Part shown: piece by piece, positions 27,693 to 29,883 of the stretch | Layout: every line of letters begins with the position of its first letter | Numbering within the stretch: position 1 is the first letter of the stretch | Assembly (NCBI RefSeq): GCF_003574735.1 | Contig: NZ_QORW01000007.1 | Coordinates: 1 to 64,000 of the forward strand | DNA length: 64,000 nucleotides | Reading direction: 5' to 3' | Source of the DNA: Dongia deserti | GTDB taxonomy: Bacteria; Pseudomonadota; Alphaproteobacteria; Dongiales; Dongiaceae | Position numbers and translations under genes: made by a program | Notes under the pieces: generated by a model | Database searches by the model: none | Told to the model about the DNA's origin: nothing | What the model saw: the letters and a program-made list of their open reading frames with translations, nothing else

Positions 27693-27710
27693 GAAGGATC
27701 ATTGCCTCGA

Positions 27711-28064
27711 TCATCCCAAAAGGAAGCGGATGAGCGTTGGCTCGATCTGCCGCCACATCACGGCCATCATCGTCAAGGCGGTTGCGATTCCCATCATGTA
27801 AAGCGTCGGTCGGACAGGCCGAGTTCGTGATCGGAAGCTCTGCCACCCAACCCACACCCAAGCACTGGCCACGATCACGACCGCGAGGGCGGTAACCCAG
27901 GCAAGCGCGCCCGCGAGCAAAGCGATGACGCTTCCGAACCCGGCAAGCGCCACGGCGGGGAGCGCAAAAGGTAGAACGCAGCATGCGGCGCACGTCGCCG
28001 CTCCTGTCGCGGCGGTCATTGCAAAGGCACTGGCCGCTTTCGCCGGCACTTTTTGCTCTGGCAT
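27711..28064 (-). CDS. MerC/MerT-like small membrane protein
   Basis: 117 aa from ATG 28064 (GGAAG site); GTG at 28079 is an alternative. About three hydrophobic segments: residues 10-40, 44-70 and 89-107. The first contains TCAACCVLPFALPAV, a cysteine pair like those that carry Hg(II) in MerT, MerC and MerF inner-membrane transporters. The second gene of a divergent MerR-controlled pair, 27 nt after the Cys-rich gene. Mercury or other soft-metal uptake or tolerance is inferred; mercuric reductase (merA) is not in the window. Confidence 0.7.
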   Translation of the reverse strand: MPEQKVPAKAASAFAMTAATGAATCAACCVLPFALPAVALAGFGSVIALLAGALAWVTALAVVIVASAWVWVGWQSFRSRTRPVRPTLYMMGIATALTMMAVMWRQIEPTLIRFLLG

Positions 28065-28091
28065 GAGATGGTCTTCCACGGGCGGCAGGGC

Positions 28092-28436
28092 TCAGCAGCA
28101 GCCGCAGTCGGCGCGAGCTTCAGCCGATGACAGGAACTGGCCGAGCAACATGTCGGCAGCGTCCCGAGCGCGCTCCGGAGCCCTGATCGTGAGCCGGACC
28201 TCACCCGGCTGCTCATCGAGGTCGAAGCTCAGGAATGCGCAGCACTCTTGCTCCGTCCGCACCATCTCGCGCACGCGTTGCGCGGCCTCGGCGGCATAGA
28301 CAAGCTCCAGTTCGAGATCGCGACGCTCGTGGCGCCGCAAGGCGTCGCGGGCGAGGTCGTTGATCCATGCAAGACGGGCCTTGTAGTCGCCCGGTGTCAG
28401 CGTACAGGCTATCGGTGTGCTTTCGACATTCGGCAT
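28092..28436 (-). CDS. Small Cys-rich protein of a MerR divergon, function unknown
   Basis: 114 aa from ATG 28436, with GAGGTG 7 nt upstream; GTG 28445 is possible. No export signal. Visible features: an N-terminal PIACTLTPGDYKARL, a helical middle, EQECCAFLSFDL with a Cys pair (about residues 64-75), an RLTIRAPE strand, and a terminal CGCC. I recall related short proteins with an ECC/QCC-F motif near metal-resistance genes but know no assigned function. The four or more clustered cysteines suggest metal handling. Confidence 0.7.
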   Translation of the reverse strand: MPNVESTPIACTLTPGDYKARLAWINDLARDALRRHERRDLELELVYAAEAAQRVREMVRTEQECCAFLSFDLDEQPGEVRLTIRAPERARDAADMLLGQFLSSAEARADCGCC

Positions 28437-28500
28437 ATCAATCACCTCTGTTTGTGCCGGTCACGTCCGTTGGAGGTTGACCGGCCGTGGTTATTGCGTT

Positions 28501-28531
28501 TGTGTAGCCCTTCAAGTCACTTGAAGTTCAA
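28501..28531 (-). promoter_or_regulatory. MerR-type promoter and operator for the 28436-27711 genes
   Basis: On the minus strand, TTGAAC (28531-28526) and TACACA (28506-28501) are separated by exactly 19 bp, the lengthened spacer of MerR-activated promoters. The spacer holds the perfect 17-bp palindrome CTTCAAGT-C-ACTTGAAG (28510-28526), whose outer base pair touches the -35. A plus-strand candidate promoter for the regulator, TTGACC (28477-28482) with TTGTGT 17 bp on, would end against this operator, allowing autorepression. Confidence 0.8.
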
Positions 28532-28555
28532 GAGGCAAATTCGGGAATTTGCACG

Positions 28556-28966
28556 ATGCCCAGCTTGAGGATCGGAGCCTTGGCGGAACGGGCGGGCACA
28601 AATGCACCAACCATCCGCTATTACGAGGAGATCGGACTGTTGCGGCCGGCGGATCGGGAGGTAGGCGGTCAACGGGCTTATGGCGAGGAGGACGTAAAAA
28701 GGTTGACGTTCATCCGCCGCTGCCGTGATTTCGGCTTTTCGATTGAGCAAGTGAGATCGCTCGTGGCGCTCGTTGAGGATCGCGAGCGGTCCTGCATGGA
28801 AGCGCGCGACCTGGCGCAGGAGCATTTGGCCGCCGTGCGCGCGAAATTGGACGAGCTGAAAGGCCTGGAGCGTAGCGTCGTCAGCTTCATCGCGAGCTGC
28901 GATGCATCCTGCGCAGGCGGTCCTGGTCCCGACTGCGCGATCCTCGACGACTTGACGAAACCCTGA
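28556..28966 (+). CDS. MerR-family metal-responsive regulator
   Basis: 136 aa. Winged helix-turn-helix at residues 4-70 (IGALAERAGTNAPTIRYYEEIGLLRP), then the dimerisation helix with Cys80 (RSCMEARDLAQEHL), then FIASCDASC (Cys115, Cys119) and PDCAIL (Cys127). The 80-to-115 spacing equals that of MerR Cys82-Cys117, and a third cysteine follows at about the right place. This suits Hg(II), but Zn/Cd/Pb sensors of the family share the first two. Diverges from the two small minus-strand genes it probably activates. Confidence 0.88.
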   Translation: MPSLRIGALAERAGTNAPTIRYYEEIGLLRPADREVGGQRAYGEEDVKRLTFIRRCRDFGFSIEQVRSLVALVEDRERSCMEARDLAQEHLAAVRAKLDELKGLERSVVSFIASCDASCAGGPGPDCAILDDLTKP

Positions 28967-29038
28967 TGGACGCCCTCGCGCTCTCCGGCCTGTTCTCCGT
29001 GACGATGACACGAGCAGGTGGTGAAGCAATCGAAGCGC

Positions 29039-29686
29039 TTACTGCGCGGCGCTCTTGAGATCGCTTTCGAATATTTCCTCGAACGCAGCGCGCAGGGCCA
29101 TGTCGAACTCGGCCATCGAGATGATGTAGCCCAGCCGCGCGAGGGAAGTGACGCCCAGGTTCTGCTCCTGGACGCCGCAGGGCACGATGCCGGCGAAATG
29201 GCTGAGGTCGGGATCGACGTTGATCGCGATGCCGTGGTACGTCACCCAGCGCCGCACGCGAACACCGATGGCGGCGATCTTGTCCTCGCGCCCGTCCTGC
29301 GCGACCCAGATACCGACGCGCCCGTCACGCCGCTCGCCCGTCACGTTGAAACGCGCGAGGGTGAGGATGATCCATTCCTCGAGATTGCGCACGAAGCGGC
29401 GCACGTCCGGCCCGCGTTCCTTCAGGTCCAGCATCACATAGGCCACGCGCTGGCCCGGTCCGTGATAGGTGTACTGGCCGCCACGCCCGGCCTCATAGAC
29501 CGGAAACTGGCCGGGCAGCAGCAGGTCGCCGGCCTTGGCGCTGGTGCCGGCCGTGTAGAGGGGAGGGTGCTCGAGCAGCCAGACGAGCTCCGGCGCGCCA
29601 CGGGTGCGGATGGCCTCCACCCGCGCCTCCATGGCGCCCAACGCTTCCTCATAGGCCACCAGCCCCTCGGAAATCTGCCATTCCAT
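29039..29686 (-). CDS. lipB: Octanoyl-[acyl-carrier-protein]:protein octanoyltransferase LipB
   Basis: 215 aa. Transfers octanoyl from ACP to lipoyl domains, the first step of lipoate synthesis. The motif [15 protein letters not shown] (about residues 69-83), Lys136 ([13 protein letters not shown]) and thioester-forming Cys170 (GIVPCGV) are intact. Convergent with the MerR gene and divergent from the tRNA-Leu. Confidence 0.95.
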
Positions 29687-29798: not shown

Positions 29799-29883
29799 GC
29801 GGTCGTGGCGGAACTGGTAGACGCGCAGCGTTGAGGTCGCTGTGGGGCAACCCGTGGAAGTTCGAGTCTTCTCGACCGCACCA
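29799..29883 (+). tRNA. tRNA-Leu (anticodon GAG)
   Basis: 85 nt including an encoded CCA end. Acceptor GCGGTCG pairs with CGACCGC; D arm GGCGGAACTGGTAGACGC; anticodon stem CAGCG/CGCTG with loop TTGAGGT, anticodon GAG; a long class II variable arm GGG-CAA-CCC region; T arm with GTTCGAGTC. Identity and boundaries were folded by eye. No integrase or duplicated 3' end is seen downstream. Confidence 0.95.

Follow-up and report, generated by a model that had tools for sequence, protein, structure and literature searches.

Organisation of the locus

The stretch of DNA analysed here (the window) comprises 64,000 nucleotides, with a GC content of about 64%, from Dongia deserti, whose genome measures 6.13 Mb in 51 contigs. 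A first-pass annotation had proposed, at 27711-28966, a MerR regulator facing a two-gene unit, and the three open reading frames (ORFs) were confirmed at these positions. The features of the locus are disposed as follows:

28556-28966, plus strand: MerR-family regulator of 136 aa, from ORF reading and matches to PF13411 and PF09278
28501-28531, minus strand: promoter/operator of X and Z, MerR type, with TTGAAC, 19 bp containing the dyad CTTCAAGTGACTTGAAG, and TACACA
28092-28433, minus strand: X, cysteine protein of 113 aa (ATG start), from ORF reading, with a C-terminal CGCC
27711-28064, minus strand: Z, MerT-like membrane protein of 117 aa (ATG start), with CAACC in helix 1
27693-29038, no strand: interval between the methyltransferase gene and the lipB-like gene, holding MerR, X and Z, with approximate insertion edges

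Alternative GTG starts upstream would extend X to 117 aa and Z to 122 aa, and Z has an ATG of its own, preceded by GGAAGA. The unit is flanked on one side by an acylphosphatase gene and a methyltransferase gene and on the other by a gene at 29039-29686 which, from its sequence, we take to be lipB-like, with a tRNA-Leu lying beyond it at 29799-29883. The absence of merA and merP had been pointed out, and in fact MerP, MerA and MerT queries gave no match (E 1e-4) within 7 kb on either side of the X start, while exporter, thioredoxin and reductase queries gave none within 7 kb of the unit. The combination of merP and merA with merR and merT that characterises a mer operon is not found in this unit.

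The X-Z promoter, which the first-pass annotation had located correctly, reads on the minus strand (28531-28501) as TTGAAC, a 19-bp spacer TTCAAGTGACTTGAAGGGC and TACACA, with the dyad spanning the spacer. This corresponds to the placement of MerR-type operators in spacers of 19-20 bp, as given in PMC9909328; a sigma-70 scan restricted to spacers of 16-18 bp returned no promoter in the region, which is what a MerR promoter would lead one to expect. The operator survey took in 44 loci: that of the window, seven from plasmids, 35 named ones from genomes and the IMG/VR contig L059. A motif, TTGNNCYTCAAGTTACTTGA, derived from these same loci was recovered, with four mismatches allowed at most, in 40 of them and missed in L030, L040, L054 and L057. 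Of those 40, 38 have TA at a spacing of 19 bp, and the motif background was 2/96 control stretches taken from the same loci. Locus L006, identical in sequence to L037, was excluded from the clustering and operator sets.

The methyltransferase-lipB interval measures about 1.35 kb in the window, versus about 205 bp and 136 bp in the congeners G002 and G001, respectively, and in a third congener, G003, it spans about 0.9 kb and holds another ORF (L128:613-1467), which by eye is arylamine N-acetyltransferase-like. X was absent from searches of these three congeners, of which G001 is 68% complete. Judged by gene content, the interval thus appears to be a spot of variable cargo near tRNA-Leu. No repeat pair bracketing the unit was found, and the five proteins scanned at the locus showed no likeness to mobile elements.

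The X family and its conserved company

The core motif of X is (PI)ACTL...R...ExxCCAFLxF[DE], frequently followed by a C-terminal CGC or CGCC. Among 31 members (alignment A5), Ala9, C10, L12, E61, C64, C65, F70 and P86 are invariant; since the genome scan pattern demanded CCAFLxF, the invariance of C64 and C65 was partly selected, while that of C10 and E61, which the pattern did not demand, was not. No significant match was obtained for the 31 members in Pfam (best E 0.012), which also revealed no MerP-type heavy-metal-associated domain in X, and none for the window X in NCBIfam or PHROGs; the best hit of the X profile against PDB sequences had an E of 0.55. X is, as far as these collections reach, a protein family without a name.

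The AlphaFold2 model of the window X (pLDDT 77.6) predicts a helix-strand-strand-helix-strand-strand-helix order, and in the model of a natural X-Z fusion (L023) the block means for residues 11-100 lie at 90-98, with the pTM of 0.48 for the X-Z structure model leaving the domain arrangement unfixed. Foldseek returned no match for X with E <= 0.001, and the similarity of the X model to AhrC, of ArgR-C/DCoH-like fold (VIA Z 8.5, rmsd 2.5, 78 aligned), is of a level that VIA rates as common, a comparison that excludes no fold. By description alone, X can be likened to ArsD-type metallochaperones, which are small and soluble, have vicinal cysteines and end in a CC tail; their motif order, compared in the same way, differs from that of X.

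Searches recovered X from 12 plasmid records (17 when a fused relative served as query), from 36 genome contigs, 35 of them holding X at E 1e-4, and from one IMG/VR contig; the phage collection yielded no record. The remaining contig, L058 (Bacteroides; 33% identity over 42 query residues), was counted as a miss. Profile scans that included the D. deserti genome itself detected X in 9 of 385 genomes of the class and in 2 of 398 genomes of the phylum. The family is rare and its occurrence patchy, with members ranging from Rhizobium, Paracoccus and Cupriavidus to Mycobacterium and Rhodococcus. A weak match in G007 (L005, E 7e-4) was dropped, as the region reads by eye as aroB/aroK-like genes. 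Additionally, a distant branch of X (L003, L004 and L016-L022) is accompanied by a MerR type of its own, with a CECLKLSDC-like end, and often by a membrane protein with one cysteine (CALPP/CELP), with YnfA in some cases.

Of the 36 named genome loci, 33 have a MerR gene no more than 1 kb from X; in the other three, X is 56 bp from a contig end (L030), 1.7 kb from a contig end (L040) or a doubtful match (L058). The class and phylum scans relied on the X profile rather than on the CCAFL pattern; there, MerR was present within 300 bp of X in 10/10 loci, the window locus included, and the same loci held a cysteine-bearing membrane segment in eight cases (the exceptions being L015 and L018) and YnfA in five. 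The first-pass annotation had named the lack of a conserved neighbourhood in related genomes beforehand as one finding that would refute its proposal, but such conservation was found in these counts as well as in the 40 of 44 loci with the operator. Because the MerR-X-Z set is conserved across distant genomes, its recurrence exceeds chance.

Of the 36 named loci, 31 pair X with a hydrophobic CxxCC segment or a close variant of it. The segment precedes X in fused form in 10 loci and separately in 7, and it follows X in fused form in 4 and separately in 10, the last being the layout of the window; no such segment was found in L030, L040, L042, L057 and L058. X and Z form a single ORF in L023, L024 and L036 (Bradyrhizobium, Gluconacetobacter) and also in the IMG/VR contig L059. 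The product had been described as a soluble Cys-rich protein of 114 aa: a cysteine protein it is, with 113 aa, but its relatives are fused to a membrane segment in 14/36 loci, which would place X at the membrane. In two Brevundimonas loci (L027, at about 7800, and L028, at about 3860), a second small membrane ORF with CAVCC follows Z.

X was also identified as the C-terminal half of MerR itself on plasmids of Rhodococcus opacus, R. pseudokoreensis and R. ruber (L119:4566-5297, L120:4518-5297 and L121:4506-5297; three plasmids examined of the four listed). These MerR-X fusions keep C10, E61, C64 and C65 (by eye), and fusion to a regulator would place X in the cytosol. The R. pseudokoreensis plasmid carries, in addition, a separate small CAVCC protein. 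This three-way exchange among X, MerR and a membrane segment is the strongest clue to function. The description of the locus as a minimal unit holds in that it is a conserved MerR divergon, yet this layout is one among several of a wider module, which comprises CxxCC-X, X-CxxCC and MerR-X fusions and elsewhere includes YnfA, thioredoxin-CcdA or ACR3-like permeases.

The regulator and the membrane protein compared with known metal-handling proteins

The window MerR scored 71.3 bits against PF13411 (cut-off 21.6) and 64.9 bits against PF09278 (cut-off 25.4), and it carries the helix-turn-helix (HTH) and DNA-binding domains by which membership of the MerR family is recognised. However, it fell below the NCBIfam equivalog cut-offs for CueR (107.5 of 147.4 bits, the best), CadR-PbrR (99.2 of 151.45 bits), MerR (97.4 of 150.85 bits) and ZntR (88.7 of 167.95 bits). 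Since none of the metal equivalog cut-offs was reached, it appears to be a MerR metalloregulator outside all modelled metal classes.

Its cysteines are C80, C115, C119 and C127. Among the regulators adjoining X (42 loci with MerR, from which 41 ORFs were obtained, L009 giving none), the alignment showed C80, C119 and C127 in 41/41 and C115 in 39/41; the regulator of L054, which lacks C115, was closer to another MerR query. The MerR-like cysteine spacing that had been proposed stands for C80-x34-C115, while C115-x3-C119-x7-C127 departs from it in having one cysteine more and a lengthened loop. According to PMC9909328, the residue contributed by the other protomer (Cys82 in MerR, Cys77 in CadR, a serine in CueR) is the main determinant of +1/+2 selectivity. 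C80 occupies the position of the cysteine in MerR and CadR, and C115 and C127 correspond to the two loop-end cysteines of the known metalloregulators. The window protein shares with MerR, CadR/PbrR, ZntR and CueR the HTH and DNA-binding domains and a promoter with a 19-bp spacer, but differs from them in the additional conserved C119 within the C-x3-C-x7-C loop.

The signature CAGGPGxDC of this regulator was present in 2 of the 385 class genomes, the D. deserti genome and one out-of-frame chance match in a recJ-like gene, so that the scan is without power as an independent test of co-occurrence. In L026 (104-1763), thioredoxin and CcdA directly follow another MerR of this type, too closely for X to fit in between, and this second set is situated some 3-4 kb away from the contig's X gene.

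The first-pass annotation had compared Z to both MerC and MerT, and the likeness held well for MerT and less so for MerC. Z carries CAACC within a hydrophobic segment, in helix 1. In hhalign comparisons, 13 Z sequences (L033, in the wrong frame, was left out) matched 11 MerT sequences with a probability of 84% (E 7.6e-6, 91 columns) and 10 MerC sequences with a probability of 39%, against 0.6% for Z versus YnfA and 3.3% for MerT versus MerC as controls. The fused N-terminal CxxCC segments matched Z at 90%, over 14 columns round the motif only, and did not match MerT (4.3%). In single-sequence searches, none of five Z proteins exceeded a Pfam cut-off, the window Z matched no family up to E 0.01 and thus did not reach the PF02411 cut-off by which MerT is recognised, and the Z of L009 scored 20 of 130 bits against the NCBIfam model MerT_RC607. 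For MerC (PF03203), the best relative, that of L026, scored 19.1 of 27.6 bits, and there were 0 matches in the D. deserti genome.

The helix-1 vicinal cysteines typical of MerT are found as CxxCC in 12/13 Z and as CAVC in L059. In contrast, a second pair of cysteines, towards the cytosol, is present in 11/11 MerT and 0/13 Z, three of which have one stray cysteine. In the MerT model outlined in PMC5715351, Hg(II) moves from Cys24/25 in helix 1 to Cys76/82 at the cytoplasmic face, and the pair in the first helix is required for transport. Under the positive-inside rule, the arginine-rich loop RSRTRPVR of Z may be read as cytosolic, which would fit a MerT-like topology. Like MerT (PF02411), Z is a small membrane protein that has cysteines in helix 1 and whose unit diverges from a MerR gene, but Z has CxxCC for CC, no second pair and no adjacent MerP or MerA, and it is fused or coupled to X. 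MerC, MerE and MerF resemble Z as small cysteine-bearing mer membrane proteins, for MerE and MerF a likeness by description alone (PMC5715351).

Other loci related to arsenic and mercury were sought in the D. deserti genome. A second divergon (L068:3273-4662, contig C33 of G000) has MerR facing MerT, MerP and a GDCCVxC protein, and the C33 gene was the only one recovered by a PF02411 search of the genome. No MerA exceeded the cut-off (best 359.8 of 454.45 bits), and an ACR3-ArsR-ArsC locus is located elsewhere. Therefore, the divergon is not the sole locus related to As or Hg in this genome.

Possible function of the unit and competing readings

In the sequence, a MerR with four conserved cysteines, a MerR-type promoter and the MerT-like Z come together, and X is joined both to MerR and to the membrane protein by gene order and by protein fusion. 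The reading to which we would give about an even chance is that this divergon, switched by MerR, serves a soft, thiol-loving metal or metalloid, and that X and Z form in it a MerT-like relay without MerP or MerA. A metal bound to MerR, by C80' of one protomer and C115, C119 and C127 of the other, would twist the 19-bp-spacer promoter and switch on X and Z. Z would present the thiols of its CxxCC inside the membrane, as MerT does with Cys24/25, and X, in the cytosol, would replace through C10, C64-C65 and the CGCC tail both the cytosolic cysteine pair absent from Z and the downstream acceptor. X would hold the ion and could then hand it on to MerR, or at other loci to an exporter (ACR3-like, YnfA), instead of MerA; the relay may serve either uptake for sensing or removal of the metal. 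Since Z lacks the cytosolic pair of MerT while X is probably cytosolic and coupled to Z, the simplest interpretation would be that X acts as a second thiol site. More tentatively, X may found a new domain family, cytosolic and metal(loid)-accepting, whose members plug interchangeably into membrane CxxCC segments, at either end, and into MerR sensors. Served by a four-cysteine class of MerR, it would provide a further route for a soft metal besides the yardstick systems MerP-MerT-MerA and ArsD-ArsAB. As to the metal, As/Sb(III) would be our first guess, short of an even chance, with Hg(II) or an organomercurial somewhat behind and any other metal placed level with the latter; no MerR-class sensor for As/Sb(III) is apparent in the open-licence literature at the level of titles and abstract openings.

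The neighbours of X were counted over 35 loci, some of them shortened by contig ends. An ACR3-like permease lies within 2.5 kb of X in 4/35 loci, the other ars genes sought in 2/35 within that distance and in 5/35 anywhere in the locus, and MerT/MerP in 1/35 and 2/35, respectively. As such neighbours are few, the link to a metal comes mostly from family resemblance. On annotated plasmids, an 'arsenic resistance protein' is found near X in two cases and ArsH, ArsN2 and ArsR in another, and further neighbours comprise a merRTPA set, a redoxin and bile-acid symporters, in one case together with ArsR and in another with a GDCCVxC protein; in four annotated plasmid loci, no ars or mer genes were present within about 4-5 kb of X.

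A unit of this form had been said not to be known as characterised, and in agreement with this no published description of MerR-X-Z was found in the open-licence literature by title and abstract opening, which is weak evidence of absence because X has no searchable name and only open-licence papers were covered. The proposed relay would give the unnamed X family a clear functional setting and singles out C10, E61, C64, C65 and CGCC of X and C80, C115, C119 and C127 of MerR as residues of interest, with the X-Z promoter as a ready-made reporter promoter. It would also account for 'hypothetical protein' genes beside plasmid MerR genes, some of them near arsenic or mercury genes, and could provide a sensor for a metal class outside the range of the known MerR proteins.

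A different role for X, which we consider unlikely, is that of a co-sensor or modulator of MerR, which would load metal onto the regulator, strip it off or report metal at the membrane, with resistance given by exporters (ACR3-like, YnfA) and the window keeping the sensing part only. It is suggested by the three Rhodococcus plasmids, where the MerR-X fusion is followed downstream by YnfA or by a relative of ACR3-like/bile-acid symporters, and by YnfA being the commonest extra neighbour of X, within 2.5 kb in 18/35 loci versus 0/35 at 4-7 kb. However, X is joined to the CxxCC membrane segment in 14 of 36 loci and in the others it forms a separate gene next to MerR; in the window, with no exporter match within 7 kb, it sits under the MerR promoter as an output.

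Rather more doubtful is a thiol-redox unit, in which X-Z would be an oxidoreductase re-reduced by periplasmic thioredoxin and CcdA, and MerR would sense thiol or electrophile stress. Thioredoxin, with a signal-peptide-like start, and CcdA are in fact encoded downstream of X within 2.5 kb in 7/35 loci and on three plasmids, and the GDCCVxC and redoxin neighbours point in the same direction, but the pair was not found within 2.5 kb in the other 28 of 35 loci nor near the window unit. Additionally, Z resembles MerT, and MerR retains C80, C115 and C127, the metal-sensor set delineated in PMC9909328.

The resemblance of Z to MerT and the mer genes near X in some loci could also be expected from a reduced, ordinary mer unit for Hg uptake, a merR-merT remnant in which X would be a degenerate MerP or a substitute for NmerA. 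This is improbable, considering that Pfam detected no MerP-type domain in X, that the cysteines of X are conserved rather than degenerate, and that the genome has a separate MerR-MerT-MerP-GDCCVxC unit and no MerA over the cut-off.

The MerT-like relay is likewise to be preferred to a single X-Z selenoprotein, in which the UGA ending X would be read as selenocysteine (CGCC-Sec) into Z: the TGA is in the Z frame with no intervening stop (window 28092-28079), X and Z are one ORF in L023, L024, L036 and L059, and tRNA-Sec (76.1 bits) and SelB (451.1 bits) adjoin on contig C23, but this reading is very improbable, since the RNA past the UGA shows no folding advantage over shuffled sequences (z of 0.11 over 50 nt and -0.53 over 65 nt) and has no Rfam match over the gathering score, the fused relatives have no cysteine at the stop position (by eye), and Z has its own start codon. 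The in-frame TGA between X and Z was treated as chance or as a split fusion because no stable hairpin follows it, CGCC-TGA also ends X where Z is out of frame (L027, L029, L031 and L032), and TGA is the commonest stop codon of X, used in 32 of 44 loci.
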